27,496 nucleotides of DNA, from positions 1-27,496 of IMG/VR virus record IMGVR_UViG_3300042868_008480, one strand, 5' to 3'. Position 1 is the first letter of the stretch. Each line of letters starts with the position of its first letter. The notes below the pieces were generated by a model, which searched no databases, had not been told where the DNA came from, and saw nothing but the letters and a program-made list of their open reading frames with translations. Origin of the DNA: a virus. This document shows positions 8,703-21,659 of this stretch, piece after piece. The position numbers were made by a program, and so were the translations under genes.

Positions 8703-8940
8703 TGTTATGTTTTTTGATTGTTAGTAAAGCTTTAATTTTCTTTTCGTGGTATTCGTCATCAATTGGATTAGCCATAGCTAACTCGATTAACGAATTTAAC
8801 AACTCCTGCTTTTCGGATTCGAGTTATTTGACCGCGAATTGTACACCCGCCTCAAAACCGTTTCCGAAATATGCGTTTTCACCTATTCGCTGATAGGATT
8901 CATTACACGCATCTGCTATTTTATCTTCGTCTATTTTCAT
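8692..8940 (-). pseudogene. Small gene interrupted by an in-frame TAA
   Basis: From ATG at 8940 the frame runs 38 codons (MKIDEDKIADACNESYQRIG...FAVK) to TAA at 8826-8824. Beyond that stop the same frame stays open for 43 more codons (LESEKQELLNSLIELAMANP ... LLTIKKHNNGI) to TAA at 8694-8692. The continuation is helical, has the composition of the flanking genes and ends across the next start, as an operon gene should. One change, for instance CAA to TAA, would explain this. Readthrough or a sequencing error are alternatives. The gene follows repeated leader motif B and has no known function. Confidence 0.6.
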
Positions 8941-8980
8941 AATTTATGCGCGTTACAGTCGCTCCCCTGATTTAGTTATA
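8941..8980 (-). repeat. Repeated leader motif B, copy 1
   Basis: On the minus strand this stretch (TATAACTAAATCAGGGGAGC, then GACTGTAACGCGCATAAATT) runs directly into the ATG at 8940. It closely matches 14633-14676 on the plus strand, which also ends directly before a start codon. The shared core AATCAGGGG.GCGACTGTAACGCGCAT can form a short hairpin with loop ACTGTAA. It also overlaps the stop codon of the upstream gene in both copies. Confidence 0.7.
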
Positions 8981-10138: not shown

Positions 10139-10166
10139 AATCGTTTGTTTTTCGTTTTGTATAGAA

Positions 10167-10235
10167 CAAATATAGGTGGTTGTTTTAAAACAACAATACA
10201 CAAAATGATGAACGGTTGTAGAAAAGTATAAACGG
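10167..10235 (-). promoter_or_regulatory. Box-controlled promoter (site 3) with 16-bp palindrome
   Basis: The minus strand reads CCGTTTATACTTT (10235-10223), CCGTTCATCATTT (10215-10203; 20 bp between starts), 28 bp, then TATATTTG (10174-10167). Between the box and the -7 element lies GTTGTTTTAAAACAAC (10179-10194), a perfect 16-bp palindrome positioned like a repressor operator. On the plus strand a weaker TAAATTAG (10242-10249) may drive the rightward gene at 10266. Confidence 0.65.
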
Positions 10236-10265
10236 TTTTTGTAAATTAGCCGAAAATCCTTTGAT

Positions 10266-10804: not shown

Positions 10805-11069
10805 ACCTACGGGTTCTTTTAAGATTGATTCAATTATTCAGATAGCAAATAGCAGGGTTGTTGGTTTGATAGTGCTTTTAGTTACTGCTTATGCGTTCTA
10901 TTCATGGATTAATGAGGATCGCATACAGGATAAGAAAGACCGTGAACAATCGCGTGTTGAGAGCTTGCAATGTAATGAGCAGTTGATTAGAGTTTTGCTT
11001 AACCAAGTTGAAGAAAATACCAACACGAATAAACAAATTTTAAAGTATCTCGAAAAGAACGATAAATAA
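10779..11069 (+). CDS. Single-pass membrane protein with coiled-coil tail
   Basis: A 96-residue protein: a short cytoplasm-like N-terminus, one membrane helix at about residues 28-44 (VVGLIVLLVTAYAFYSWI), then a charged, Gln/Asn/Glu-rich helical region likely to form a coiled coil. This topology resembles inner-membrane spanins and some small holins. It starts inside the preceding membrane gene and is followed by two tandem terminators, so it ends this short transcript. The lysis role is inferred from topology and neighbour only. Confidence 0.65.
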   Translation: MSPIQDVNRPTGSFKIDSIIQIANSRVVGLIVLLVTAYAFYSWINEDRIQDKKDREQSRVESLQCNEQLIRVLLNQVEENTNTNKQILKYLEKNDK

Positions 11070-11081
11070 CCCTACCTTTAC

Positions 11082-11143
11082 GAGCCTTTTGGCTCTTTCA
11101 TACTTTCGTTTAAAGTGCTTTCGTAATTGGAGGCACTTTTTTT
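11082..11143 (+). terminator. Two tandem intrinsic terminators
   Basis: GAGCC-TTTT-GGCTC (11082-11095) is followed by TTT. AAAGTGC (11112-11118) pairs with GCACTTT (11133-11139), followed by a run of T to 11143. They end the 10266-11069 transcript, and a new -7 element starts only two bases later. Confidence 0.8.
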
Positions 11144-11144
11144 G

Positions 11145-11265
11145 TACATTTGTAATGTCATTAACCTTGACCAGTTGGTTTTTTGTCGGTGAAACGAAAT
11201 CAAAATCTGGTGGTTTGACTCTTTTTATAGAGCAGATTTAAGCCCCCGTTAAAAGGGGCTTTTTT
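11145..11265 (+). ncRNA. Short promoter-terminator unit; possible small RNA or 28-aa ORF
   Basis: TACATTTG at 11145-11152 starts a short unit that ends at a strong terminator, AAGCCCC (11240-11246) paired with GGGGCTT (11255-11261), followed by TTTT. A 28-codon ORF (ATG 11155, MSLTLTSWFFVGETKSKSGG..., TAA 11239-11241) begins two bases after the -7 element and ends in the hairpin, so either a leaderless micro-gene or an RNA is possible. It converges on the 57-residue gene at 11238-11411. The -33 match is weak. Confidence 0.4.
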
Positions 11266-11411
11266 GTTTTGTATCGTTTATGAAATTCAAATCCACCACA
11301 GTTTATACAAGAATGCAACTCTAAATCAATTTCATCTTCACTTACTGAACTTGTAAAGTTTGATAGATTGCATTCGTTGCATACCCATTCAAAGTCATTA
11401 TTTTCTTCCAT
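11238..11411 (-). CDS. Small zinc-ribbon-like protein (57 aa)
   Basis: ATG at 11411 to TAA at 11240-11238 encodes 57 residues. It has CNEC at residues 11-14 and CINC at 35-38, two CxxC knuckles 20 residues apart, typical of a small zinc ribbon. Zinc ribbons in phages serve in DNA, RNA or protein binding. The last codons lie within the convergent terminator hairpin. It is the last of four small leftward genes from the promoter at 11964-12031. The exact role is unknown. Confidence 0.65.
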   Translation of the reverse strand: MEENNDFEWVCNECNLSNFTSSVSEDEIDLELHSCINCGGFEFHKRYKTKKPLLTGA

Positions 11412-11441
11412 ATCTTTTTTGTTAGTCGTGGATTGAGCCGA

Positions 11442-11633
11442 TTACTTCGATTCTGCTCCAATTTTTTCTAGCAACGCATCGATTGTAAAAAATTGGATCA
11501 CAGTATCAATGTCGAATTGCTCTAAAATTGAATCTGAATTAATCGCTGTGATATCAAGATCAATTGATCTATAACCGTTCGGGCTTATTTCAACTCCTTC
11601 ACACGATATTTTTAAACTTATTTCCTTACTCAT
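11442..11633 (-). CDS. Small hypothetical protein (63 aa)
   Basis: A 63-residue acidic protein beginning MSKEISLKISCEGVEISPNG. The first half looks like beta strands, the second helical (DTVIQFFTIDALLEKIGAES). It begins five bases after the stop of the 30-codon gene upstream and belongs to the four-gene leftward block. No family recognised. Confidence 0.55.
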   Translation of the reverse strand: MSKEISLKISCEGVEISPNGYRSIDLDITAINSDSILEQFDIDTVIQFFTIDALLEKIGAESK

Positions 11634-11638
11634 GTTTT

Positions 11639-11731
11639 TTAATTTAGATTAATTGCTTTTTTATCGGAAGTCCACTGAACGCTATCGCCTACTTTTTTAC
11701 TTGATGAATAATTTATGGCTATTTCACTCAT
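11639..11731 (-). CDS. Micro-gene (30 aa)
   Basis: ATG at 11731 to TAA at 11641-11639 encodes 30 residues (MSEIAINYSSSKKVGDSVQW...). It overlaps the end of the upstream gene by eight bases and fills the gap to the next gene completely, which supports translation. It is too short to assign. Confidence 0.45.
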   Translation of the reverse strand: MSEIAINYSSSKKVGDSVQWTSDKKAINLN

Positions 11732-11948
11732 CGTTCAGTTGTTTTAGAAGTTCGTCTGTCCACCGTATAGCAAGTTCAACACCTTGCTTTGAGTTGCTTA
11801 AATGACCATTAGGCGCATTTGCTATTAAACCCTGCATAGCTAAACCAGCGAAATGTTCACGCTTTGTTAAGCCGTTATAACTTCCTGAACCATCTTCAAA
11901 TTTGATTGGATTTACAGGATTAATTGGTTCTTTTCCTAGTTTACTCAT
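11724..11948 (-). CDS. Hypothetical protein, first gene of small leftward operon
   Basis: I choose ATG at 11948 (MSKLGKEPINPVNPIKFEDG, 74 residues). A TTG-initiated extension would start inside the -7 element TAACTTTG (11971-11964), so it is excluded. Residues 30-60 read REHFAGLAMQGLIANAPNGH, a pattern common in small phage proteins of unknown function (EhFA.mAmqGll.n), followed by a helix with WTDELLKQL. The leader would be about ten bases. Confidence 0.75.
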   Translation of the reverse strand: MSKLGKEPINPVNPIKFEDGSGSYNGLTKREHFAGLAMQGLIANAPNGHLSNSKQGVELAIRWTDELLKQLNDE

Positions 11949-11963
11949 ACTTTCAATTTTCCC

Positions 11964-12031
11964 CAAAGTTACGGTATAGCAATCGTTGACATCCGTTAAT
12001 GTGATGAGCGGTTGTAATAGATGATAAACGT
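11964..12031 (-). promoter_or_regulatory. Box-controlled promoter (site 4), leftward
   Basis: The minus strand reads ACGTTTATCATCT (12031-12019), CCGCTCATCACAT (12011-11999; 20 bp apart), exactly 27 bp, then TAACTTTG (11971-11964). No TTTG occurs at the -33 position. The distal box overlaps the spacer of the opposing promoter at 12012-12043, so binding could block that promoter. Confidence 0.65.
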
Positions 12032-12140
12032 TTATTACATTTGTATTGAATCAAAGTGATAATAACCGTACCCGAATAGCTTCCCGTAAGATCAGCGTTC
12101 GGGTCTTTTCTTAAATAAGAAGTTCGTTATTTAAGTTTTT
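12012..12140 (+). ncRNA. Small RNA unit: canonical promoter and double terminator
   Basis: TTG at 12012-12014, a 21-bp spacer and TACATTTG at 12036-12043 form a standard promoter. About 20 bases downstream ACCCGAA (12070-12076) pairs with TTCGGGT (12098-12104). Then CTTAAATAA (12110-12118) pairs perfectly with TTATTTAAG (12127-12135), followed by TTTTT. No credible ORF lies between. A transcript of about 90 bases with two hairpins is expected. From 12141 to 12236 I see only AT-rich DNA with a GCTTATT/AATAAGC inverted repeat and CGATTAAA twice (12182, 12191). Confidence 0.5.
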
Positions 12141-12214
12141 AGCTTATTTGGTTAAATATGTCAGAATAAGCATGGTTGTTTCGATTAAAACGATTAAATG
12201 ATATTTATTTAATT

Positions 12215-12308
12215 TTTGCATATTCAGAAAATTTCCTATCTTTGATGAAAGAACTTTGACAGATTTGAAAGTTAATAAATACCCCCGAGTTGGTGCTCGG
12301 GGTTTTTT
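12215..12308 (+). ncRNA. Small RNA unit: canonical promoter and terminator
   Basis: TTTG (12215-12218), an 18-bp spacer and TATCTTTG (12237-12244) are followed 38 bases later by CCCCGAG-TTGGTG-CTCGGGG (12283-12302) and TTTTTT. The predicted transcript is roughly 58 bases. The only ORF is ATGAAAGAACTTTGA (four codons). The strong terminator argues for a discrete product rather than a leader for the methyltransferase downstream. Confidence 0.5.
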
Positions 12309-12405
12309 GTTCCCAGTTTCGAACGCCCCTAATTTACAAATTATTTTCGTGATAAATCATTAGGAAGCGGATTTGAAAAATCCGTGTGTGCAAAGGCTTG
12401 TAGGG

Positions 12406-13272
12406 GCTATTTAACATAAAGTGACGTTATACGGCGTGGCGCGACCAAAGGAAGCCCATGTTGTATAACGGTATCGGGCTTGGCGAAGTTGCCGAACCGA
12501 AAAGCTAAATAGAAGTACAAATGTTTAAAATTAAGAACGAATGTTGATAGAAGAACAAAACGGCAATTTTGCCAAACCCGTGTTAGGTGCAGTGCCTTCT
12601 GTGGTGTATAATGAGGATTGTGTAGAGGTTTTAAAACGCTTTTCTGATAATCATTTTGACCTTGCAATAGTTGACCCACCTTATGGCAATATTGATGCAA
12701 TAGGTTTAAGTGATAACAAAAAGAAAGGCAAGCAAGCGACTAAAAGAAAAGGTTATCACTTATTTGAAAATATTGCACCTGATAATGAATACTACTACCA
12801 ATTAGAAAGAGTATCTAAAAATCAAATCGTTTGGGGTGGTAATTTTTTAGGGCTTTGCGGTGGTGTAATTGTGTGGCAAAAAAATGGAACTGCATTTGGT
12901 GAAGCGGAGGTTGCAATTTGCTCAACGCATAAAAGTGTAAAGGTTTTTGAATATACTTGGAATGGTATGATACAACAGAATATGAAGGATAAAGAGATTA
13001 GAATACACCCAACTCAAAAACCTGTGGCACTTTACGAATGGATATTGCATAATTACGCAAAGCCAAACGATTTGATTTTAGATACACATTTAGGTTCAGG
13101 TAGTAGTCGTATTGCTTGCCATAAGATGGGATTCAACTTTACAGGAATAGAAATAGACCCAAAATATTATGAAGCACAAGAAAAGCGTTTTAAAGATTTT
13201 GTCAGCCAACTCCGAATGTTTTAGGGTGTCCGCTGGCATTGCAGCTAATGTTGACCTTTATGTTAATATAGC
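12406..13272. mobile_element. Candidate methyltransferase cassette bounded by imperfect inverted repeats
   Basis: The left end (12406-12431) reads GCTATTTAACATAAAGTGAC. The right end, read on the minus strand from 13272, is GCTATATTAACATAAAGGTC. They share GCTAT and an 11-bp exact TTAACATAAAG. The only gene between them is the methyltransferase. The left flank is also unusually structured: CGTTATAC pairs with a later GTATAACG, AAGCCC with GGGCTT, and it is more GC-rich than its surroundings. No transposase and no clear target duplication were seen, so this may be a gene cassette or a non-autonomous element. Confidence 0.45.
12541..13224 (+). CDS. DNA methyltransferase (amino-group type, beta order of motifs)
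   Basis: A 227-residue protein. Residues 24-49 read NEDCVEVLKRFSDNHFDLAI and end in VDPPYG, catalytic motif IV (DPPY) of N6-adenine or N4-cytosine methyltransferases. The AdoMet-binding motif I follows near the C-terminus (residues about 179-192, LDTHLGSGSSRIA). IV before I is the beta-class order. HPTQKP just before motif I is also typical of this class. It probably methylates phage DNA to resist host restriction; no partner endonuclease is present. It sits alone between inverted repeats and lacks the box-type promoter of its neighbours, consistent with separate acquisition. Confidence 0.9.
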   Translation: MLIEEQNGNFAKPVLGAVPSVVYNEDCVEVLKRFSDNHFDLAIVDPPYGNIDAIGLSDNKKKGKQATKRKGYHLFENIAPDNEYYYQLERVSKNQIVWGGNFLGLCGGVIVWQKNGTAFGEAEVAICSTHKSVKVFEYTWNGMIQQNMKDKEIRIHPTQKPVALYEWILHNYAKPNDLILDTHLGSGSSRIACHKMGFNFTGIEIDPKYYEAQEKRFKDFVSQLRMF

Positions 13273-13330
13273 TTGGCAACTATTCGAGCGTTAAGCTCGT
13301 TGTACAGGATGAGGTAAAATATAAAAATAA

Positions 13331-13398
13331 CCTTCCATCACATTATACAGCCGTTCGTCACATTCGGTACTTTCGTATAGTAAAACGCAATATATTTG
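13331..13398 (+). promoter_or_regulatory. Box-controlled promoter (site 5), rightward
   Basis: CCTTCCATCACAT (13331-13343) and CCGTTCGTCACAT (13351-13363) start exactly 20 bp apart. The second is followed by 27 bp and TATATTTG (13391-13398). The HNH gene starts at 13424. The rest of 13225-13330 has no gene: it holds the right repeat of the methyltransferase cassette and a CGAGC-GTTAA-GCTCG hairpin at 13285-13299. Confidence 0.65.
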
Positions 13399-13423
13399 CA
13401 TTGTAACCAAACGAGGTTTAATA

Positions 13424-13864
13424 ATGGAAAAAAGATTAAACGGCGATTGTATTGAGGTTTTTGGTTGTTCTACAAATGATGGATACCCAAGATATTCAGT
13501 CAACGGAGTTCTTGACTTTGGTCATAGGCATTCTTACAGACAACACTTTGGAGAAATACCAAAAGAAATGGTTGTGATGCACTCCTGCGATAACAGGTCT
13601 TGCGTAAACATAAATCACCTTTCATTAGGAACGATTCAAGATAACATAAAAGATCGAGACTTAAAAGGTAGAACAGCTAAGGGAGAGAAAAACGGTAGGT
13701 CTAAACTATCTGAAAAAGATGTTTTATCTATTTTAAAAAGCACAGATAGCAGTTGGAAGTTATCAAAATCTCTAAATGTAGACCCAAAGGTGATACGTGA
13801 TATTAGGGGTGGCAAAACATGGAGATATCTAACAAATATCATCCAACCGCCCATCAATGCCTAG
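13424..13864 (+). CDS. HNH homing endonuclease with C-terminal DNA-binding helices
   Basis: A 146-residue protein. Residues 50-70 read VVMHSCDNRSCVNINHLSLG, the compact HNH motif of phage homing nucleases (H53, the CDN..CVN knuckle, N-x-x-H at 62-65), which cuts DNA with a metal ion. Residues about 90-135 (KLSEKDVLSILKS ... LAKS-like SKSLNVDPKVIRDIRGGKTW) form a helix-turn-helix related to the DNA-binding modules often attached to such nucleases. It is free-standing; no interrupted gene is evident around it. It follows promoter site 5 and precedes a long structured non-coding stretch. Confidence 0.85.
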   Translation: MEKRLNGDCIEVFGCSTNDGYPRYSVNGVLDFGHRHSYRQHFGEIPKEMVVMHSCDNRSCVNINHLSLGTIQDNIKDRDLKGRTAKGEKNGRSKLSEKDVLSILKSTDSSWKLSKSLNVDPKVIRDIRGGKTWRYLTNIIQPPINA

Positions 13865-13869
13865 CGGTG

Positions 13870-14050
13870 TTGGTGGGGACGAGCTGAAAGCAACGGACTG
13901 TTAAACCGTAAGACTAGTTGTCTTTTGCTTATCAGTTCCCCTCAAAGCACTGAATCGCGATGAGGGGGCAAAATCCTGCCGAATAGGATATTAATTTAGT
14001 TATTCGGGTGGTGGTTAAACGGTAAGCGGGTGATTCTGCTTACCGTTACT
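13870..14050 (+). other. Structured non-coding stretch upstream of the 44-aa gene
   Basis: No ORF fits here, but several stems do. GGGGA (13875-13879) can pair with TCCCC (13936-13940), enclosing AAGCAA/TTGCTT and two hairpins, one with a tRNA-Asn-like seven-base loop CTGTTAA. CCGAATA (13979-13985) pairs with TATTCGG (14001-14007). AACGGTAAGC (14018-14027) pairs perfectly with GCTTACCGTT (14038-14047). A full tRNA cloverleaf does not form because no T arm follows. This may be a regulatory leader or an independent RNA. The folds were made by eye. Confidence 0.4.
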
Positions 14051-14084
14051 AAAAGAGGAAGTCGAAAATCTTATAGAGTAGGCG
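14051..14084 (+). repeat. Repeated leader motif A, copy 1
   Basis: AAAAGAGGAAGTCGAAAATC followed by TTATAGAGTAGGCG lies 19 bases before the ATG at 14104. It matches 14939-14974, which lies 21 bases before another start. AAGA can pair with TCTT here where the other copy has AGGA with TCCT, a compensatory pair change. GTC could then pair with the distal GGC as a pseudoknot. Confidence 0.6.
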
Positions 14085-14103
14085 AAATTAAAAACTAGTT
14101 ATC

Positions 14104-14238
14104 ATGAATAATGTGACTAAAAAACTTGAATGCTTGTTTGCTTGGAGCGATTTCTACAAACAGAATCAGCGTTGGGATGATTGGGCTAATACTCAACAAC
14201 AAATCGACGAGTTTAAGCGCAAGCATAACATCAAGTAA
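14104..14238 (+). CDS. Small hypothetical protein (44 aa)
   Basis: ATG at 14104 to TAA at 14236-14238 encodes MNNVTKKLECLFAWSDFYKQ and 24 more residues, rich in Trp, Gln and Lys. It probably forms two helices. The repeated leader motif A directly upstream supports expression. No family recognised. From 14239 to 14290 nothing further is visible. Confidence 0.55.
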   Translation: MNNVTKKLECLFAWSDFYKQNQRWDDWANTQQQIDEFKRKHNIK

Positions 14239-14290
14239 ATACTGCCGTGGTAAGCAGTTTTCAGTGAATAGTGATTTAGGTGGTTAGGTT

Positions 14291-14317
14291 AAAGGGAGGT
14301 TTCGGAACCTCCCTTTT
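14291..14317 (+). terminator. Strong intrinsic terminator
   Basis: AAAGGGAGGTT (14291-14301) pairs perfectly with AACCTCCCTTT (14306-14316) around a TCGG tetraloop, followed by T and AT-rich DNA. It separates the HNH transcript from the promoter region that begins eight bases later. Confidence 0.9.
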
Positions 14318-14324
14318 AAATTTA

Positions 14325-14392
14325 CCGCTTGTCAGTTTGTTTTGCCACTCATCATAAATTAAGTTCAAAACGGCTATAGTGCTATATCTTTG
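14325..14392 (+). promoter_or_regulatory. Box-controlled promoter (site 6), rightward
   Basis: CCGCTTGTCAGTT (14325-14337) and CCACTCATCATAA (14345-14357) start 20 bp apart. Then come 27 bp and TATCTTTG (14385-14392). No TTTG occurs at -33. The first gene starts at 14414. Confidence 0.7.
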
Positions 14393-14413
14393 CTGTATAC
14401 AAAACGAAAGGAT

Positions 14414-14641
14414 ATGAAAACAACAATCGAAATGAACGGGTTAGACAGCAAAGAATTAACCTTCCAAGAATTTGAATCATTAATAAACCAAGTTGGAATG
14501 AATTGGTATGGTCTTGATAATTGGACTAGAGGCGATTTAGATTTGTTCGAAGAAAAATTCGACGGATTTACTTGTGAGCCAATCGATGGAAAGATGAAAA
14601 TTTGGGATAGAAATTTCGATTATTCACCATTGTATAACTAA
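14414..14641 (+). CDS. Hypothetical protein (75 aa)
   Basis: The start is ATG at 14414 (MKTTIEMNGLDSKELTFQEF). A TTG-initiated extension would begin inside the -7 element, so it is rejected. The protein is acidic with a Trp-rich middle (NWYGLDNWTRGDLDLFEEKF). The stop codon lies within repeat motif B that leads into the next gene. No family recognised. Confidence 0.65.
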   Translation: MKTTIEMNGLDSKELTFQEFESLINQVGMNWYGLDNWTRGDLDLFEEKFDGFTCEPIDGKMKIWDRNFDYSPLYN

Positions 14642-14676
14642 CCAAATCAGGGGCGCGACTGTAACGCGCATTAGTT
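14633..14676 (+). repeat. Repeated leader motif B, copy 2
   Basis: TATAACTAACCAAATCAGGG and the following GCGCGACTGTAACGCGCATTAGTT run directly into ATG 14677. The hairpin GCGCG-ACTGTAA-CGCGC (14653-14669) is perfect here. The other copy is on the opposite strand at 8941-8980. A further unrelated-sequence hairpin with a five-base stem and seven-base loop, CGCGT-ACATGAG-ACGCG, occurs 20 bases before ATG 15978. Confidence 0.7.
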
Positions 14677-14934
14677 ATGAACCTACAACAATTTAAAAAC
14701 ATCAAAAGCGGTCAACTTGTAATGTTCCAGCAAGACGTTTACCGAATCCTGTCAATGAATGGGATGCCAACCGGATTAATGTGTGGTGGTGGATCAAACT
14801 TAAGAGCAATATTGACAATTGTAGTCCATGAAAAAACAAAAACATTCACACTTGTTAAGCACATTGAGGGTTTCCGATTCGAAACACACCACTTTGAAAT
14901 CGACGAAATAAAGTTGATCGACAACCAAAACTAA
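14677..14934 (+). CDS. Small beta-rich hypothetical protein (85 aa)
   Basis: An 85-residue protein beginning MNLQQFKNIKSGQLVMFQQD. The pattern K.GQLV.F....YRI, then a Gly-rich turn (MCGGGSNLRA) and two further strands, suggests a small SH3-like beta barrel. No catalytic motif. Its start is directly preceded by leader motif B, which may control its translation. Confidence 0.6.
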   Translation: MNLQQFKNIKSGQLVMFQQDVYRILSMNGMPTGLMCGGGSNLRAILTIVVHEKTKTFTLVKHIEGFRFETHHFEIDEIKLIDNQN

Positions 14935-14938
14935 ACCC

Positions 14939-14974
14939 AAAGGAGGAAGCCGAAAATCCTGAAAAGAGTAGGCG
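14939..14974 (+). repeat. Repeated leader motif A, copy 2
   Basis: AAAGGAGGAAGCCGAAAATC followed by CTGAAAAGAGTAGGCG lies 21 bases before ATG 14996. It contains a perfect AGGAGG, but too far from the start to serve as an ordinary ribosome site. AGGA/TCCT and GCC/GGC pairings would form an H-type pseudoknot. The first copy is at 14051-14084. Confidence 0.6.
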
Positions 14975-14995
14975 TTTTTTAGAAAATAAAAAATC

Positions 14996-15379
14996 ATGAA
15001 TATATTTAAAGTAAACGCCTGTCAAGAAAACGGAAGAGAATTAATCTGTGAATTTCTTGAAAAACTCGAAGTAAAATTCGTTAAGCCAACTATACTTCCT
15101 AATGCTATTTTCAATCATAATCGATATATTAAATTCGAGGTGAATGGTCAAGAATATCACATTGAGTGGTACATTAATCAATGTACATTAATAATCGGTA
15201 ATAGAGAGATGGGCGCTAGAATTCCATTCAAATGGATGTATCAAGATGTTAATTTCCCAATAGCTGTAGGAAATAGTAATAGAAGTATTGGCTTCTCGGA
15301 TGAGATAAAAGAAAAACAGCATGATTTTGATGATGAATTTCCTTACGCTGTTCTTAGAATTCCGACCAATAGAATTTAG
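14996..15379 (+). CDS. Hypothetical protein (127 aa)
   Basis: A 127-residue mixed alpha/beta protein beginning MNIFKVNACQENGRELICEF. No membrane segment or named motif. It lies downstream of leader motif A and five bases before the next gene. No family recognised. Confidence 0.65.
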   Translation: MNIFKVNACQENGRELICEFLEKLEVKFVKPTILPNAIFNHNRYIKFEVNGQEYHIEWYINQCTLIIGNREMGARIPFKWMYQDVNFPIAVGNSNRSIGFSDEIKEKQHDFDDEFPYAVLRIPTNRI

Positions 15380-15384
15380 AAACC

Positions 15385-15681
15385 ATGACAACCAACCTAG
15401 AAATAGACCGCTCGATCAATTGCGTATATGGCAAGTACAACGGTGGTGACTTCGCTTTTAACTTTGAGGTTGATGATTATGAGTTAACGTTAAAAGACGA
15501 CACTTTTTACGATGCCAACGACGATCCGATTGTCTTACAACCGCAAGTGCTTAAATCAATCAAGCAAGAAGTTCACGAATGGTTCATCCAACAAGACGAT
15601 TGGCACGAACTTACCGAGCCTAGTCACGATGCCTACGAATGGCATCAGCAAGCATTGGAAGACGAACGAATGGATAATTAA
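15385..15681 (+). CDS. Acidic hypothetical protein (98 aa)
   Basis: A strongly acidic 98-residue protein: a beta-rich first half (CVYGKYNGGDFAFNFEVDDY) and a helical, Trp/His/Glu-rich C-terminus (EVHEWFIQQDDWHEL). Strong acidity is common in phage proteins that mimic DNA, but nothing here proves that role. Confidence 0.65.
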   Translation: MTTNLEIDRSINCVYGKYNGGDFAFNFEVDDYELTLKDDTFYDANDDPIVLQPQVLKSIKQEVHEWFIQQDDWHELTEPSHDAYEWHQQALEDERMDN

Positions 15682-15693
15682 ACGTTGATTGAT

Positions 15694-15939
15694 ATGAGCA
15701 AAAAAGTAGAATACAATTTAGACTTTTACGAAGCGCTTAAGATAGTTATGGATGGTGGTTGTGTAAAAGGTGATAATTTTATCGATGGTATATTTTTGAA
15801 GTTGTGTGATCGCGGACGGCTAGTAATTGTAGATGTAAGGGAATTTTACAAAGAAGACCCTGCTGTTTACATTAAAGGAATGCTTCAGCAAAAATTTAGA
15901 AGTATAACCGTAATGACTTTAAGAGAATTGTCACACTAA
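15694..15939 (+). CDS. Hypothetical protein (81 aa)
   Basis: I use ATG at 15694 (MSKKVEYNLDFYEALKIVMD) rather than an upstream TTG three codons earlier. The N-terminal F.EALK.....G..VKG resembles the opening of several small phage proteins, DUF2829/Tad1-type among them, but key residues cannot be confirmed by eye. No further assignment is justified. Confidence 0.6.
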   Translation: MSKKVEYNLDFYEALKIVMDGGCVKGDNFIDGIFLKLCDRGRLVIVDVREFYKEDPAVYIKGMLQQKFRSITVMTLRELSH

Positions 15940-15977
15940 CCCGCGTACATGAGACGCGATAATCAAGATTTTGGATT

Positions 15978-16286
15978 ATGAAAACAGCAGAGGAAATATT
16001 AAACAAAACTTTCACGTTAGGTGAATTTGATGAAGTTGGTAATTGTAATGATCCTTTTTATGATAAAGAAGATGTTATCAACGCCATGGAAGAATACGCA
16101 GACCAATTCAAACCGAAGTGGAACGTATTTACAAGCAACAGATCAAACGATCCGAAGTTCGGTGAGTATGTTTTGATTGTAAGCCAGTATAAACCAGATA
16201 AGCCGATTTTGATGATGTGGGATAATGTTTATGGCGTTATAGAGGGCGATGAGTGGATTTACTTTAAAGACTTACGGCAACCATAA
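15978..16286 (+). CDS. Hypothetical protein with DUF551-like C-terminus
   Basis: A 102-residue protein. The N-terminus is a helical segment with a conserved-looking INAMEEYADQF (a pattern common in phage accessory proteins). The second half reads GEYVLIVSQYKPDKPILMMW and then EWIYFKDL, the VLv...W...... W pattern of DUF551-type proteins. Function unknown. The stop directly precedes promoter site 7. Confidence 0.6.
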   Translation: MKTAEEILNKTFTLGEFDEVGNCNDPFYDKEDVINAMEEYADQFKPKWNVFTSNRSNDPKFGEYVLIVSQYKPDKPILMMWDNVYGVIEGDEWIYFKDLRQP

Positions 16287-16334
16287 CCGTTCATCACAAT
16301 TCCGAGAAACGGGTAAAAAACAGTAGTAACTTTG
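16287..16334 (+). promoter_or_regulatory. Box-controlled promoter (site 7), rightward
   Basis: CCGTTCATCACAA (16287-16299), exactly 27 bp, then TAACTTTG (16327-16334); ATG follows at 16346. This is the best match to the box consensus and the only site without a recognisable second box 20 bp upstream, where coding sequence lies. No -33 TTTG is present. Confidence 0.75.
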
Positions 16335-16345
16335 AAGAAAAAATT

Positions 16346-16555
16346 ATGACAGCAAAGGAAAAGGCGGTTGAACTTTATAATAAGTTCAGAAACGAAAACG
16401 CGGTTTTATCGGCAAATGTTCGCGCTAAAAAACAGGCATTAATCGCGTGTGATGAGATACTTCGATTAGCTTGTTTAAATGACACTGACGGATATACAGG
16501 ATCAAATACTGAAAAATACTGGCAACAAGTAAAACAAGAAATCGAAAAACTATAA
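16346..16555 (+). CDS. Small helical hypothetical protein (69 aa)
   Basis: A 69-residue helical protein beginning MTAKEKAVELYNKFRNENAV. The pattern of KEKA.ELY..F at the start and YWQQVKQEIEKL at the end occurs in many small phage proteins of unknown role encoded near recombination genes. It is the first gene after promoter site 7, immediately followed by two genes up to the annealing protein. Confidence 0.65.
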   Translation: MTAKEKAVELYNKFRNENAVLSANVRAKKQALIACDEILRLACLNDTDGYTGSNTEKYWQQVKQEIEKL

Positions 16556-16556
16556 C

Positions 16557-16757
16557 ATGGCAAAACCGATTAAAAAAGCAACTGTATATTTTCGTCCGCT
16601 AGTATTGACGGATGAGAATTTCAATCGCATGAAAACGACACCCGAAGAATTTTCGGAAATGACGAGACTTTCACAGATGGTAACGGCAGATGATGCTATT
16701 ACCGAAGGGCTTGAGATAGAAAAAGTAGAAATCGTAAACAGAAAGAAAGAAGTATGA
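16557..16757 (+). CDS. Small hypothetical protein (66 aa)
   Basis: A 66-residue protein beginning MAKPIKKATVYFRPLVLTDE. Its stop overlaps the start of the annealing-protein gene (ATGA), suggesting translational coupling. No family recognised. Confidence 0.6.
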   Translation: MAKPIKKATVYFRPLVLTDENFNRMKTTPEEFSEMTRLSQMVTADDAITEGLEIEKVEIVNRKKEV

Positions 16758-17545
16758 ATAAAAATCCATTAATTTTAAAGTCAGAGCAAATTGACGGTGT
16801 GGTTTTATCCGTTATCGGAAAGAAAAACATTACAGGATTCCAAAAAGCGCACATTGTAAGTGGTGCAATTGTGCAACTTAAAACGCTTTTAGATGCCGAG
16901 TACATGAGTCCAATTATGGCTTTACAAGGCACATCATTAGGATTCAGAACAGACAAAGACAAAACAGGCGGTTATCCCGTGGACGTTGTACAGTATTGTT
17001 TAATTGAAGCCGTTCTAAAAGGTTATCAACCAACTAACAACGAGTTCAATATCATTGCGGGTAATATGTACCCAACTAAAAACGGACTCGAAAGAAAAGC
17101 GAATGAATGGCAAGGTTTGAAGTATTCAATTGTTCAGTCAATTAAAGTCTTTTCAACTGAGAATAAAAATGCTTTGGTTGAAGCTTTGATCAAGTGGGAG
17201 ATAAACGGTGATTCACGCGAGGAAACCGTGCCTATTCCGCTTAAAATAGATTCATGGACATCTGTTGACGCTGTTATCGGAAAAGGCAAGAGAAAAGCTC
17301 TAGCGTGGTTGCTATCCGTAGTCAGTGGTGAGGTGGTTACGGATGGTGATGTTGATGATTTGAAGCTACATGAAATAGCCAAACCAATTGAATCCACTAT
17401 TAATAAACCACCAATGACACCCGAACTACTAACCAAAGCTATCGAATCAATAGTTTTCGAAGGTGTTGACCCCGAAAACATCAAAGCGGAATACGACTGT
17501 ACGCCCGATCAGATTAAACAACTCGACGAGGCAATACCGAAATAA
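16754..17545 (+). CDS. Putative single-strand DNA annealing protein (RecT-like)
   Basis: A 263-residue protein. Residues about 55-105 contain YMSPIMALQGTSLGFRTDKD, GGYPVDVVQYCLIEAVLKGY and NNEFNIIAGNMYPTKNGLER, which matches the plan of RecT-type recombinases: a helical segment with a lipid of A..LGy.P.nneF.II and a beta hairpin leading to a nucleic-acid-binding core. The C-terminal 60 residues are a helical tail (KAIESIVFEGVDPENIKAEY). The next operon encodes a YqaJ-like nuclease, and such pairs drive phage recombination by cutting ends and annealing strands. The exact family (RecT, Erf or Rad52-type) was not determined; a Rec-like role is inferred from motif and neighbour. Confidence 0.65.
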   Translation: MNKNPLILKSEQIDGVVLSVIGKKNITGFQKAHIVSGAIVQLKTLLDAEYMSPIMALQGTSLGFRTDKDKTGGYPVDVVQYCLIEAVLKGYQPTNNEFNIIAGNMYPTKNGLERKANEWQGLKYSIVQSIKVFSTENKNALVEALIKWEINGDSREETVPIPLKIDSWTSVDAVIGKGKRKALAWLLSVVSGEVVTDGDVDDLKLHEIAKPIESTINKPPMTPELLTKAIESIVFEGVDPENIKAEYDCTPDQIKQLDEAIPK

Positions 17546-17614
17546 CCGTTTAACATTTTGAAAAACCGCTCATCACAACTGGGCGGTTTTTTACTTTAAT
17601 CAAACTTATATTTG
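17546..17614 (+). promoter_or_regulatory. Box-controlled promoter (site 8) fused with a terminator
   Basis: CCGTTTAACATTT (17546-17558, directly after the preceding stop) and CCGCTCATCACAA (17566-17578) start 20 bp apart. After 28 bp comes TATATTTG (17607-17614). AAAAACCGC (17561-17569) pairs perfectly with GCGGTTTTT (17583-17591) followed by T, an intrinsic terminator whose stem and loop contain the proximal box. End of one operon and control of the next therefore share the same bases. Confidence 0.75.
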
Positions 17615-17634
17615 TTGAAACGAAAAAGGAAAAC

Positions 17635-18279
17635 ATGAATACATACGTAAAATATTGCCCGAATGTTTTTGTTGCGAAATGCACAGAAAGACACGCTAAA
17701 TTTGAAACAATTATTTTGACAACCAAATACGGTAAAGAAGTTGAAAATATTGTTCATAATTTTCTCTTTGAAAAAGATGGTTTTCACTATTATTCGATCG
17801 TTCGTGCAGATGGTTTTAATACGCAAGAATGGTCGAAACGCAAAGCTGAAAAACTAAACAACGCTAGTATTACGGCAGAGCATAAAAGTACAGAAAGTTG
17901 GAAAGCTTCACATGAAGGTCGTGATTTTCTTGTATTGGCTGAACCAATTAAAATTGGTCACCATTCGGAAAAAAGACACCGAGCATTAATTGAGCGAAAC
18001 CATAACCGAATGCGCAAAGCGGTTGAATTAAATGATAAGGCAAATGAATACGCTGAACGAGCTAAATATTGGGAGTCAAAAACAGAAGAAATAAACCTTT
18101 CAATGCCTGAAAGCATCGACTATTTTGAGTTTAAATTAGAAGAAGCAAAAGAACGACAAGAAGGTTTGAAATCAGGCAAATACCCTAGAGATCATTCTTT
18201 CTCACTTTCTTACGCTACAAAAGCTGTAAAGGAATTACAATCTAAATTCGATACAGCTAAGAAATTATGGCAGGATTAA
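17635..18279 (+). CDS. DUF3560-domain protein
   Basis: A 214-residue protein. Residues about 64-150 contain EWSKRKAEKLNNASITAEHK, then PIKIGHHSEKRHRALIERNH and a charged helix with NDKANEYAERAKYWESK. The GHHSEKRHR motif and helical region identify the DUF3560 domain found in plasmid and phage accessory proteins of unknown function. The C-terminus is a charged coiled-coil segment. It overlaps the start of the nuclease gene by 13 bp and lies between the annealing protein and nuclease, suggesting a DNA-metabolism role, which is inference. Confidence 0.8.
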   Translation: MNTYVKYCPNVFVAKCTERHAKFETIILTTKYGKEVENIVHNFLFEKDGFHYYSIVRADGFNTQEWSKRKAEKLNNASITAEHKSTESWKASHEGRDFLVLAEPIKIGHHSEKRHRALIERNHNRMRKAVELNDKANEYAERAKYWESKTEEINLSMPESIDYFEFKLEEAKERQEGLKSGKYPRDHSFSLSYATKAVKELQSKFDTAKKLWQD

Positions 18280-19139
18280 TAAAGGAGCGATGTTCGGCAC
18301 TTGGTCATTTGATGGTCGGTGCTGAACTTGGTGGTAGTTTGATACCGCTAGGCGTTACGGATCAAAAGCGTTTGGATCAGTGCTTACAGGCTAAGGAAAA
18401 CAGCAAGTTAACTCCTGCCATGGAACGCGATTTAGCTTTACTTATCGAAAAGAGAGATACACCGTTTAAGCCTGAGTTATCTGTAGGCGCTAAAACGCAC
18501 GTTCAAAACAAGTGGTACGGGCAGAAATTCGACTACCAAAAGCGGTTTTCAAATAAGTACACACGCAAGGGAAACGAACGCGAGGCACAAGCGATTAAAC
18601 AGGCGGGCGAATACCTTGGTTATCCGTTCACTTACAAGAATGAAAAGCACCTCGAAAACGATTACATTCACGGTACTTACGATTTCATAAAGCCTATTTT
18701 CATTGGTGATACGAAGTGTGTTTGGGAGCCAAGCGGATTAGGGTTTTTCAGCAAGGAAATCCAATCAATTTACGAATGGCAAGGAAAAGGTTATTGCTAC
18801 TTAGGCGAACGTGATCATTTCGCGCTTATCAGAATCCTAATGAACCCACCCGAAACAATGATTTACAGCCTAGCTAAACCGCTTTGGGAGGAAGCAGGGT
18901 ATCATTGGAGCGAACAGATAACCGATGAGTTCTTAGAGGACGTTAAACACGAATACGATTTCGAGGCAAAGAACCCGATTGAAGATCGGATTAGATTGCT
19001 TCGCGTTGACTTCACCGAACGTGACCAACTTCTAATCAACCAACAGGTAAACCTAATGAACGAATACTGGCAAACGCTCGATGAGGATTTCGCCAACAGA
19101 AATAAACTAGAGTACGAATTTTTCAAACGAAAAACATGA
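18267..19139 (+). CDS. YqaJ-like PD-(D/E)XK nuclease
   Basis: A 290-residue protein. Residues 103-153 hold the catalytic core: NEREAQAI (E104/E106), HGTYDFI (D139) and IGDTKCVW (D148, K150), followed by YEWQGKGYC (Q172). This matches the GxxD....D/E-x-K...Q pattern of YqaJ/lambda-exonuclease-like recombination nucleases, which chew DNA ends to produce single strands for an annealing protein. The likely partner lies at 16754-17545. Its start overlaps the DUF3560 gene and its stop overlaps the next start (ATGA). Confidence 0.8.
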   Translation: MAGLIKERCSALGHLMVGAELGGSLIPLGVTDQKRLDQCLQAKENSKLTPAMERDLALLIEKRDTPFKPELSVGAKTHVQNKWYGQKFDYQKRFSNKYTRKGNEREAQAIKQAGEYLGYPFTYKNEKHLENDYIHGTYDFIKPIFIGDTKCVWEPSGLGFFSKEIQSIYEWQGKGYCYLGERDHFALIRILMNPPETMIYSLAKPLWEEAGYHWSEQITDEFLEDVKHEYDFEAKNPIEDRIRLLRVDFTERDQLLINQQVNLMNEYWQTLDEDFANRNKLEYEFFKRKT

Positions 19140-19357
19140 TCGGAATTAAATGTAAATCAGGACAAGTTTTTTCAGCTTGTAATAGTGATTACGTAGATGC
19201 TGAATGGAAATTACAAGAAGCTTATTACAAAGCGCAAGGATGCGCGGTTGAAGAATCTGATGAAATTAGATTCTCAGAATGCCATTGCGACCATTGCGAG
19301 TCTTTGGAGCATGAGTTTGAAAATTTGATTGATGAAATTAAATCACAAAAGCCATGA
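19136..19357 (+). CDS. Small Cys-rich hypothetical protein (73 aa)
   Basis: A 73-residue acidic protein with CHCDHC near residues 49-54 and additional cysteines at 6, 15 and 36, consistent with metal binding but not a textbook zinc finger. Overlaps both neighbours by ATGA. No family recognised. Confidence 0.6.
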   Translation: MIGIKCKSGQVFSACNSDYVDAEWKLQEAYYKAQGCAVEESDEIRFSECHCDHCESLEHEFENLIDEIKSQKP

Positions 19358-19605
19358 CCCCATCCCGCACCGTACAAGGCTACGACAGCCAACGTAATCA
19401 AGTTATGCCAAAGCACGACGAAGATTTTAATCCGAGCGATTACCGGATTACCGAGGTGAAATTGAAGCGATGTTATTCACGGTACAACCTTCCTAGTTGG
19501 CAACACTTTGATCGTGTTATCAACTTAGGATCGATAACAGGCACTCAACTAGTAATCGGATTAACAGGCAAACACCAAACAGTTTTAAAAGCAGAAAGAT
19601 TATGA
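19354..19605 (+). CDS. Basic hypothetical protein (83 aa)
   Basis: An 83-residue basic protein beginning MTPSRTVQGYDSQRNQVMPK. The end reads TGTQLVIGLTGKHQTVLKAE. Its last codons form the 13-base leader repeat TTTTAAAAGCAGA (19583-19595) before the next start. No family recognised. Confidence 0.55.
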   Translation: MTPSRTVQGYDSQRNQVMPKHDEDFNPSDYRITEVKLKRCYSRYNLPSWQHFDRVINLGSITGTQLVIGLTGKHQTVLKAERL

Positions 19606-19850
19606 ATATTACAGTAAAAGATTTTGTTGGACTTTCAGCAGAAGATAATTTGAAACTATTAAGAAGTTTACTAGATAATCGAAAGCCGAAAGAAGGAAGT
19701 TTTGATTACGGATTTGAAACACATGGTGTATTTGAATTGATTTCAAATTTGCATTTAGACTATCCTATACAGGTTTATCAGAGCAATAAAAGAAAATCAG
19801 ATAAATCCCCAATAGTTGTTACTATTGAAAAGCACAAAATGTTATTTTAA
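19602..19850 (+). CDS. Hypothetical protein (82 aa)
   Basis: An 82-residue protein beginning MNITVKDFVGLSAEDNLKLL, mostly helical in the first half with basic strands at the end. Its ATG overlaps the previous stop (ATGA) and follows six bases after TTTTAAAAGCAGA, a sequence repeated exactly before the next gene. No family recognised. Confidence 0.6.
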   Translation: MNITVKDFVGLSAEDNLKLLRSLLDNRKPKEGSFDYGFETHGVFELISNLHLDYPIQVYQSNKRKSDKSPIVVTIEKHKMLF

Positions 19851-19863
19851 AAGCAGAGAAGGT

Positions 19864-20028
19864 ATGAGAACATTTCACATTTGCTGGATTTCCGGCACAA
19901 CAGAAGCGGGCGCACCGATGTCAACAGGTATAACCGTTGAAGGTGAATCGATACTTGAAGCACTAGTAGAGTTCGAACTCGACCATGAAGGAATAGAACC
20001 AATTTACATTACTCAAATGAATTTTTGA
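19864..20028 (+). CDS. Small hypothetical protein (54 aa)
   Basis: I use ATG at 19864 (MRTFHICWISGTTEAGAPMS) because the in-frame upstream extension would overlap the previous gene and starts with TTG. The second copy of TTTTAAAAGCAGA (19845-19857) lies six bases before it. The protein looks like two or three strands and a helix with ILEALVEFELDHEGIEPIYI, a pattern of small phage proteins of unknown role. Confidence 0.6.
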   Translation: MRTFHICWISGTTEAGAPMSTGITVEGESILEALVEFELDHEGIEPIYITQMNF

Positions 20029-20045
20029 CAATCAATATAAATAGT

Positions 20046-20261
20046 ATGAACGATTTAATAATGGCATTGACAATTCTAGCCAAATACGCCAACCCCGAAG
20101 ACAGAACACCGACTCACTGTGAACATGATGAACTTAATGTTCATGCAGGAATAAAACTAGAATCCGTATCACAAGAAGATGTGAAAAAATTGGATGAACT
20201 TGGTTTCTTTTGGTCTGAATACAACAATTGTTTCATGTCTTATCGATTCGGTAGTTGCTAA
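20046..20261 (+). CDS. Hypothetical protein (71 aa)
   Basis: The likely start is ATG at 20046 (MNDLIMALTILAKYANPEDR), seven codons after a TTG alternative. The acidic protein contains a His/Cys cluster (TPTHCEHDELNVHA) and ends with LDELGFFWSEYNNCFMSYRF, a pattern seen in small phage proteins (eLGf.W......w..yr.GSC). It may be a metal-binding fold. It is the last gene of the operon from promoter site 8. Confidence 0.65.
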   Translation: MNDLIMALTILAKYANPEDRTPTHCEHDELNVHAGIKLESVSQEDVKKLDELGFFWSEYNNCFMSYRFGSC

Positions 20262-20381
20262 CTAACCAATTATTCGTATATTAGCACCTCAAAGTAACGA
20301 CCAATTACAGAAGAGATTATTTGATGCCTTGTTTGGGAATGCCGTTTGGTCGTGGCTACTTGAACAGGGCATTGTTTTTTT
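20255..20381 (+). ncRNA. Small RNA unit or leader with terminator, before HNH gene
   Basis: TTG (20255-20257), 19 bp and TATATTAG (20277-20284) resemble a standard promoter. Downstream GATGCCTTGTT (20323-20333) pairs with AACAGGGCATT (20363-20373; two G-T pairs), followed by seven T (20375-20381), a strong terminator. A transcript of about 90 bases would result, or the hairpin ends the upstream operon. The 10-mer TAACGACCAA occurs at 20295-20304 and again at 20384-20393 around this hairpin. Confidence 0.45.
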
Positions 20382-20394
20382 AATAACGACCAAA

Positions 20395-20874
20395 ATGGAA
20401 AAAGAAATTTGGAAAAAAGTAGAAGGGTTCGAAGATTATCAAGTATCAAATCTAGGAAAGGTTAAGAGTTTAAAATTTGGAAAAGGAAAGATTTTAAAAC
20501 CCTGTGTTGACAATACAGGATATTTAAAAATTGTATTCTGTGTAAACTCAATACACCACACTAGAAGAATCCATCAGCTAGTGGCTATTGCTTTTTTAAA
20601 TCATGAGCCATGCGGTTATAAATCAGTGGTAAATCATAAAGACTTTGATAAATTCAACAATAGAGTTGATAATTTGGAAGTTGTTTCAGCAAGAGAAAAC
20701 ACTAACCGAAAACATCTTAAAAGTAGCAGTATTTATACAGGAGTTAGTTTTAATAAAGCTCGTAAAAAATGGGTATCACAAATTAGAATTAACGGTAAAC
20801 AAACATATTTCGGTCTTTTTAAGACCGATTTGGAAGCCAGCCACGCTTATCAAAATGCACTTAAAAATTTATAA
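20395..20874 (+). CDS. HNH homing endonuclease with NUMOD4 and AP2 domains
   Basis: I choose ATG at 20395 (MEKEIWKKVEGFEDYQVSNL), since NUMOD4-type nucleases normally begin with this WK.I.GFE.Y.VSN.G.V.S pattern; upstream frame extension crosses a terminator. The 159-residue protein has NUMOD4 (residues 1-45), HNH core (about 58-105: RRIHQLVAIAFLNH, VVNHKDFDKFNNRVDNLEVV) and an AP2-like DNA-binding domain (about 112-155: YTGVSFNKARKKWVSQIRIN, GLFKTDLEASHAY). Such genes spread as free-standing homing endonucleases. It splits the early region between the recombination and replication operons. Confidence 0.9.
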   Translation: MEKEIWKKVEGFEDYQVSNLGKVKSLKFGKGKILKPCVDNTGYLKIVFCVNSIHHTRRIHQLVAIAFLNHEPCGYKSVVNHKDFDKFNNRVDNLEVVSARENTNRKHLKSSSIYTGVSFNKARKKWVSQIRINGKQTYFGLFKTDLEASHAYQNALKNL

Positions 20875-20885
20875 AATTGTAAATT

Positions 20886-21659
20886 ATGAGCAAAAACAGC
20901 CCTGCCTTTCAATTTTATCCCGCCGATTTTTTAGTCGGTACTGCTGAAATGACAGCCGAGGAAGTTGGCGGTTACATTCGGTTATTATGCTACCAATGGA
21001 CGAAGGGATCACTGCCAAACGATGATCGTAAGTTAATGCAGTTGGCACTTGTTTTTGATTTGAATGTGATGCGGTCGATTAAAACGAAATTCACAAGACA
21101 GGAAGATGGCACTATTGTAAACCTAAAGCTTCAAAAGGTACGCTTAGAACAGGATCAATTCCGTGAAAAACAAAGGGAAAAGGCTCAAAAAAGGTGGGAT
21201 TCCAAAACAGATGCCACGGCATCATCGGGGCATGAAAACGGCATATCCCAAAACGATGCCCTTCAACCTTTAACCTATAATCTTAATTCTATACCTTCAC
21301 CTACACCTTCGGTTATTACGGAAAAACCGAAACGGTTTATTCCACCGACCTATCAGGAAGTAGTTAATTATTGCATTGAAAGGAAAAACAAAGTCGATCC
21401 GCAAAGATTCATTGACCACTACACATCTAACGGGTGGATGGTCGGTAAAAACAAAATGAAGAATTGGAAGGCGGCGATTCACACATGGGAAAAAAACAAC
21501 TTTAACACAACAGCAAATGGAACAACAGGAACAAAACAACCAATTGATTGGGAGCAACGAGACAGAGCGTTTGTTGAGCGCGTCATGGGATCAGGTCAAA
21601 TCGACGTTACTAGCGAAGGGGATAACGACGAACCTTTCACAAGTTTCGAAGATGCTTAG
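20886..21659 (+). CDS. DUF1376-type replication protein
   Basis: A 257-residue protein. The N-terminus (AFQFYPADFLVGTAEMTAEE, GGYIRLLCYQWTKGSLPNDD) is the DUF1376 winged-helix-like domain found in phage replication initiation proteins. A variable linker follows (residues about 118-145), then a domain FIPPTYQEVVNYCIERKNKV with FIDHYTSNGWMVGKNKMKNW and KAAIHTWEKN, frequent at the C-terminus of replication proteins of Gram-positive and Bacteroidota phages. It probably binds the origin or helps load host helicase. It overlaps the next gene by 8 bp, its likely partner. Confidence 0.8.
   Translation: MSKNSPAFQFYPADFLVGTAEMTAEEVGGYIRLLCYQWTKGSLPNDDRKLMQLALVFDLNVMRSIKTKFTRQEDGTIVNLKLQKVRLEQDQFREKQREKAQKRWDSKTDATASSGHENGISQNDALQPLTYNLNSIPSPTPSVITEKPKRFIPPTYQEVVNYCIERKNKVDPQRFIDHYTSNGWMVGKNKMKNWKAAIHTWEKNNFNTTANGTTGTKQPIDWEQRDRAFVERVMGSGQIDVTSEGDNDEPFTSFEDA

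Follow-up and report, generated by a model that had tools for sequence, protein, structure and literature searches.

Kissing-loop terminator leaders, a proposed family of cis-acting RNAs preceding replication genes in flavobacterial phages

Promoter-terminator units in the window

The window analysed here is the whole 27,496-base-pair (bp) stretch of the IMG/VR virus record IMGVR_UViG_3300042868_008480, in which an initial annotation had flagged four short promoter-terminator units within positions 11145-20381. The last of them, unit 4, is the main subject of this study and precedes, on the same strand, a NUMOD4/HNH homing endonuclease gene and a DUF1376 gene (coordinates in Table 1). The terminase of the window is nearest, among cultured phages, to those of Flavobacterium siphophages (~45-47% identity), and one near-identical phage contig, IMGVR 3300042940_001590 (hereafter the relative contig), served as the natural comparison. 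Protein scans with the genes flanking the units retrieved nothing beyond this one close relative and distant fragments.

All elements of the four promoter-terminator pairs were found where the initial annotation had placed them, three with a -33 element and unit 1 with a poor one. Terminators numbered 18 in the window versus 9.8 ± 2.5 in shuffled DNA (12.5 kilobases (kb) scanned), and a strict -7 element followed within 115 nucleotides (nt) by a simple strong terminator occurred twice on the plus strand (units 1 and 3) versus 0.13 times per strand after shuffling. Units 2 and 4 were missed by this strict scan because their hairpins are long or compound, and the reality of unit 4 is established by homology and covariation instead. 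The four units had been treated as alike, a view that the relative contig contradicts: it lacks units 1 and 3, joins the promoter of unit 2 to another gene and has, at the locus of unit 4, a diverged allele of it. The description of the units as being without clear genes was misleading for unit 4: the ATG of the homing endonuclease gene lies 21 nt past the end of its terminator stem.

Architecture of the unit 4 leader

In the predicted fold of the unit 4 RNA, an A/U-rich linker joins a 5' hairpin (P1) to a terminator hairpin (P2), on top of which sits a short helix (P3), and the P1 loop (strand A, ACGACCAA) pairs with the P3 loop (strand B, UUGGUCGU) as a kissing loop. Between 20026 and 21493 the modules differ between the window and the relative contig, yet the 23-bp promoter is identical and the RNA shape is kept with diverged sequence. 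In both alleles, and at the same place, 8 nt near the 5' end are complementary to the terminal loop of the terminator hairpin (p ~0.001-0.003 each, by shuffling).

Distribution of the leader family

About 25 relatives of unit 4, all in phage or likely phage contigs, were gathered by covariance models, a structural descriptor and protein synteny. Model R1, built from the window and relative alleles with only the terminator stem paired and no kissing-loop term, matched further leaders among terminase-related phages, and a second covariance model, R2, also free of a kissing-loop term, found additional members. R1 or R2 matches bearing a kissing loop of 7-10 bp comprised G002, G004, G022, G032, hattifnatt9-1 (two leaders), L184, mumin, phi18:3 and phi10:1. 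The descriptor, which combines two hairpins, a terminator and the kissing loop, was run on 2.1 megabases (Mb) and gave 15 matches with a promoter and an open reading frame (ORF) versus 0 in shuffled sequence; it requires the kissing loop itself, and the independent members are those reached through R1, R2 or protein synteny.

The members have a -7 element close to TATATTTG, marking a host-type promoter, followed by a P1 of mostly 4-7 bp (14 bp in one), a linker, a P2 of 8-16 bp and a P3 loop of ~8-12 nt, with 7-10 bp of complementarity between the P1 and P3 loops. Conservation of the hairpins in relatives, named by the initial annotation as a check on its proposal, was strongly borne out for unit 4.

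The family extends to Cellulophaga phages. The podophage phi18:3, located by protein and not by RNA, encodes a homologue of the small protein that follows the hattifnatt leader. Upstream of this homologue lies a leader with a promoter, an 8-bp kissing loop and a terminator, which is the single match of R2 in that genome (expect value E 2e-6). The siphophage phi10:1 gave an R2 match (E 7e-9) before gp024, gp025 and the primase/helicase gp026, and three other Cellulophaga phages gave no R2 match. Under strict filters that lose weak matches, R2 detected none in 395 Bacteroidota genomes and one in 299 Flavobacteriaceae genomes, the latter in a short, probably phage contig. Sampling outside flavobacterial phages was poor. 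BLASTN searches of phages with unit 4 and its allele returned chance matches only, and exact promoter patterns searched in viral and genome collections retrieved only unrelated promoters. L184, a bacterial-genome contig of likely phage origin, contains at positions 1-300, ahead of its kissing-loop leader, more short stretches made up of promoter, hairpin and terminator.

Covariation of the kissing loop

An orthologous leader was present in 46 of 46 records of cultured Flavobacterium LMO6/LMO9 siphophages. In hattifnatt the two strands of its kissing loop are GTGAGACG/CGTCTCAC and in morran GTGAGAAG/CTTCTCAC; mumin, snusmum and mymlan have GTGGAACG/CGTTCCAC. Covariation was counted on these cultured orthologues because a MAFFT alignment of all members failed through sequence divergence. 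In the resulting alignment (A5), all 27 pairs were kept and six showed compensatory double changes, distributed as three in the kissing loop, two in P2 and one in P3, versus none in slid control structures. P1 showed only U-G variation in A5 but varied across distant members. Compensatory change, as expected of a new RNA family, was found in the proposed helices, for P1 by this variation among distant members.

The metagenomic leaders R and G022 are about three-quarters identical elsewhere, while half of their kissing-loop positions differ on both sides with pairing kept. Complementarity of each member to its own loop, summed over 23 members, reached 181 versus a maximum of 114 in 20,000 permutations, in a set that includes members chosen by the descriptor; for this reason the cleaner evidence comes from the members that the models found. 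A faster rate of change in the loop was considered but not adopted. Differences fell in 4 of 16 loop versus 8 of 103 other positions between hattifnatt and mumin (Fisher p 0.056) and in 8 of 16 versus 26 of 91 between R and G022 (p 0.14), so that the trend is suggestive and the rate differences are not significant.

Position and gene context

In nearly all members a co-directional start codon lies 5-52 nt past the terminator. Usually the leader is followed by a gene of 60-110 codons, then by a replication protein, of the DUF1376/DUF6291 type or another, and then by a primase or helicase; in other members the genes behind the leader encode DEAD/ResIII helicases, BT4734-like (primase-type) proteins or an AAA ATPase. 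A homing endonuclease gene (HNH or GIY-YIG) immediately follows the leader in the window, L052, L053 and L182. The gene after the leader differs by allele, being the HNH gene in the window and a gene of 70 amino acids in the relative contig. As in attenuator leaders, a promoter just upstream and an intrinsic terminator precede the gene, which is co-directional and directly behind, and this arrangement recurs in unrelated members. In the window and in G002 (in L144), the start codon is closely preceded by an exact copy of strand A; partial copies occur in two more members, and the others are without one.

Between the leader and the small gene, a further motif, GGUAAUCUUnAAACC, was noticed in L143 (6957-6990), L154, L132, L097, L189, L191 and L197. 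Flavobacterium and Cellulophaga phages share it with little or no change, and it is perhaps a second control element.

Proposed mechanism and alternative explanations

Unit 4 probably belongs to a new family of phage leaders acting in cis, here termed kissing-loop terminator leaders, in which the loop may serve as a switch; we put the probability of this reading at about two in three. The promoter, the terminator, the three-helix architecture, the covarying kissing loop, the position before a start codon, the replication context and the presence in several cultured phages are all read from sequence. A host-type promoter would start a transcript of ~100 nt, which would fold as described above and terminate in the U tract, a short distance ahead of the start codon of an early gene that in most cases heads a DNA-replication operon; in the window, the homing endonuclease gene sits between the leader and the replication part of the predicted operon. 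Most transcripts would stop at P2, leaving the operon dependent on read-through, and the kissing loop may act as the switch: whether it forms during transcription would determine if P2 can close in time. Once released, the short RNA could compete for the loops and thereby provide feedback. In the few members with a full or partial strand A copy near the start codon, the P3 loop might additionally cover the start region.

Several observations weigh against this mechanism. No alternative antiterminator pairing was found by eye, and control of termination by the loop is not visible. P1 is weak in the window member, with only 4 bp versus 5-7 bp in most relatives. In a homologue found by model, L163:16281-16385, the kissing loop is partly broken and no ORF follows closely; it is possibly a decayed leader copy. 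Finally, a terminator before a start codon could simply reflect a free-standing RNA gene packed into a compact genome.

Such a free-standing small RNA, with host or phage targets and with its proximity to the next gene due to compactness, would account for the own promoter, own terminator and compact fold of unit 4, as well as for the different genes behind its two alleles. It is nevertheless unlikely, since nearly all of the ~25 members stand before a co-directional start codon, most of them heading the same kind of operon. Moreover, no space for a second promoter exists between the terminator and the ATG, so the gene behind needs read-through or upstream transcripts, and a cis-acting leader is therefore preferred. 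Trans targets elsewhere in the phage genomes were also sought and discarded, the kissing-strand words occurring near chance beyond the leader and the start-region copies. The initial annotation had proposed small RNAs under host control, active when a phage regulator is absent. The host-type promoter of unit 4 agrees with this in part, whereas the remainder fits poorly because the relatives are leaders before start codons, usually heading a replication operon, and because cultured Muminvirus-type carriers in the LMO collection are described as virulent phages (PMC7077304). Because the LMO carriers are virulent, lysogenic immunity is an unlikely general purpose of the element.

Feedback in trans deserves more weight than a free small RNA, although it too is doubtful. 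The stable terminated leader would pair with complementary loops or the start region of other transcripts, nascent or read-through, and exert copy-number control on the replication operon, and divergence of the loops would avoid cross-talk between related phages; the principle would be that of IsrK of Gifsy-1, the P4 CI RNA or antisense RNAs of plasmids. Loop sequences do differ among otherwise near-identical phages of the same hosts, and more than the rest of the leader in both pairs compared above, and the exact copies of strand A where translation of the following gene starts, in the window and G002, point the same way. A precedent is IsrK, a phage RNA that has short and read-through forms (PMC4825925). 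Against trans feedback stand the non-significant rate differences, the absence of the start-region copy from most members and the expectation that the cis partner in the same molecule should win. An extended form, in which the loop is a self-recognition code, is a rather speculative idea: terminated leaders would pair only with leaders of the same code, throttle replication operons by copy number and insulate related phages from each other, while in some phages, including the window, the same strand would also mask the start codon of the next gene.

A leader with an intrinsic terminator before genes would suit a ligand sensor with a kissing-loop aptamer, and riboswitches often contain loop-loop contacts. 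However, loops and stems vary freely, with only the promoter invariant and no conserved nucleotides to form a binding pocket, and the downstream genes have no common metabolic theme, which makes a riboswitch very improbable. Equally improbable is an element acting as DNA, such as a replication origin or primase site: it would explain the closeness to replication genes, but not why nearly all members carry a -7 element and a U tract in a defined orientation, nor why hattifnatt9-1, L097 and G003 have two copies with different loops.

Comparison with known systems

Structured leaders with terminators are a known kind of element, and the architecture with its freely changing kissing loop appears to be new. 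No Rfam 15 family matched the unit 4 leaders at the curated (gathering) score, with weak matches only, and no description of such a leader was found in the open-access literature searched, a search that was not exhaustive. Among known systems, the CI RNA of satellite phage P4 and the c4 RNA of P1 and P7 likewise involve premature termination in an early leader and short complementary segments that differ between relatives. Unlike these, the complementarity of unit 4 lies within one leader, whose terminator holds one partner, and the carriers checked are virulent, which does not match the role of CI and c4 in lysogen immunity. Plasmid attenuators of the pT181 and ColE1 types resemble unit 4 in their replication genes and loop-loop pairing, and those of the pT181 type also in transcription attenuation; in unit 4, however, both loops are in the same transcript, and no systematic search for a counter-transcribed RNA was made. 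The put RNA of HK022 is another cis-acting structured leader of a phage early transcript with a link to termination control, but it lies upstream of the terminators and binds RNA polymerase, whereas in unit 4 the terminator is part of the structure. Within the window, the DUF805b RNA (RF02914) is also a short leader element before small genes (14052 and 14940); its structure is unrelated, and unit 4 gave no match to RF02914.

IsrK of the Salmonella prophage Gifsy-1 offers a closer likeness. A phage promoter yields a short RNA ending at an intrinsic terminator, as in unit 4, the read-through form is the messenger RNA of the genes behind, and the short form can pair with it (PMC4825925). The text consulted describes no terminator-tip kissing loop, and IsrK belongs to a temperate phage in another host phylum (PMC4825925); for the unit 4 family, activity in trans is only a proposal.

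The family thus provides a defined RNA element common to Flavobacterium siphophages and to Cellulophaga siphophage and podophage isolates, ahead of replication genes. To our knowledge, little is established about early-gene regulation in Bacteroidota phages. Loop variants are naturally swapped in near-identical isolates, and the element is therefore directly testable in culture. More generally, loop-loop complementarity can expose a leader family that is invisible to BLAST and Rfam.

Units 1 to 3 and neighbouring features

Table 1. Features of the promoter-terminator units and their surroundings in the window
Feature	Position	Strand	Remarks
Unit 1	11112-11261	+	Upstream terminator 11112-11139, -7 element, 28-codon ORF, terminator 11240-11261
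Unit 1 -7 element TACATTTG	11145-11152	+	Poor -33
Unit 1 28-codon ORF	11155-11241	+	ATG at 11155
Unit 2	12000-12104	+	Repeat 12000-12036, -7 element, leader, terminator stem 12070-12104
Unit 2 -7 element TACATTTG	12036-12043	+	TTG 20 nt upstream
1.95-kb segment	12088-14037	+	Absent in relative contig; edges are GCTTnCCGT repeats; holds 3' half of unit 2 terminator, unit 3, N6/N4 methyltransferase 12541-13224, HNH 13424-13864
Unit 3	12215-12304	+	-33 TTTG 12215-12218, -7 TATCTTTG 12237-12244, terminator 12281-12304
DUF805b RNA (RF02914)	14052-14084	+	Rfam match; fed by unit 2 promoter in relative contig
Unit 4 -33-type TTG	20255	+	Upstream of -7
Unit 4 -7 element TATATTAG	20277-20284	+	Inside 23 bp (20263-20285) identical in relative contig
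Unit 4 P1 hairpin	20294-20308	+	GUAA 20294-20297 / UUAC 20305-20308
Kissing strand A ACGACCAA	20297-20304	+	In P1 loop; A20297 usable by either helix
Unit 4 P2 terminator stem	20323-20373	+	Arms 20323-20337 / 20359-20373
Unit 4 P3	20341-20343 / 20354-20356	+	Caps P2
Kissing strand B UUGGUCGU	20346-20353	+	In P3 loop
Unit 4 U tract, intrinsic terminator	20375-20381	+	
Second exact copy of strand A (ACGACCAA)	20386-20393	+	Translation start region of next gene
NUMOD4/HNH homing endonuclease gene	20395-20874	+	Immediately behind leader
DUF1376 gene	20886-21659	+	Next in operon; last part common to relative contig

Common ancestry of units 1-3 with unit 4 was considered and rejected: no kissing loop was seen in them by eye, and the sole plus-strand descriptor match in the window with a score above 31 was unit 4 itself.

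For unit 1, a 28-residue peptide had been offered as an alternative to a small RNA and is the more likely reading. About 120 bp (~11116-11236), comprising the upstream terminator, the -7 element and the predicted ORF, are missing in the relative contig, which keeps only the last terminator and joins the gene ending at 11069 (window numbering) directly to it. An extra gene with its own promoter and terminator, absent in a close relative, is the anatomy of a moron, and unit 1 is more likely a moron-like insert with a putative 28-codon gene. Translation of the ORF would need to be nearly leaderless because its ATG lies ~3 nt after the -7 element. No relative of unit 1 was found among phages.

Comparison of the two contigs indicates that unit 2 has a genuine phage promoter and that the methyltransferase/HNH segment interrupts its leader, since in the relative contig the same promoter and the first ~45 nt continue directly into the DUF805b RNA and a 44-amino-acid gene (window 14104). 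A deletion of the 1.95 kb in the relative contig is at least as likely as an insertion in the window because half of the terminator stem remains in the former. A second copy of the DUF805b RNA lies at 14940-14974 (+), and both copies are ~20-25 nt upstream of the ATGs of small genes (14104 and 14997).

Of the four promoters, that of unit 3 is the best, and its terminator is strong. The unit has no start codon in a sensible frame and had no relative in the phage collection searched. It may represent either a small RNA or spacer sequence in the methyltransferase segment, and of the four units it alone could still be a small RNA.

The initial annotation also held that no unit carries a phage box, which it left undefined. 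The operator-like TATACAAAACG, found near 10150 and 14385, is indeed absent from all four, whereas unit 2 has a different repeat. The operator-like string TATACAAAACGAAA, at 10150-10174 (-) and 14385-14409 (+), immediately follows -7 elements and is probably the box that was meant. The repeat of unit 2, TGATGARCGGTTGTA..ATAAACG, occurs at 10206-10240, 12000-12036 and 17541-17577 (reverse), beside promoters including that of unit 2, and its third copy overlaps a terminator.

Within the 1.95-kb segment, positions 12466-12593, upstream of the methyltransferase gene, show 83% identity to LMO phages, in which the sequence is oriented the other way, a sign that the methyltransferase may belong to a mobile cassette, and an inverted repeat, GTTATACGG..GTATAACGG, stands immediately upstream of this sequence. 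After the HNH gene, ~13878-13945 (+) resembles the D and anticodon arms of an asparagine transfer RNA (tRNA-Asn); a tRNA at ~13880-13945 was rejected for want of support from ARAGORN or Rfam. Outside the segment, 8919-8978 and 14639-14698 form a 60-bp inverted repeat, 82% complementary, that spans the start regions of two genes.

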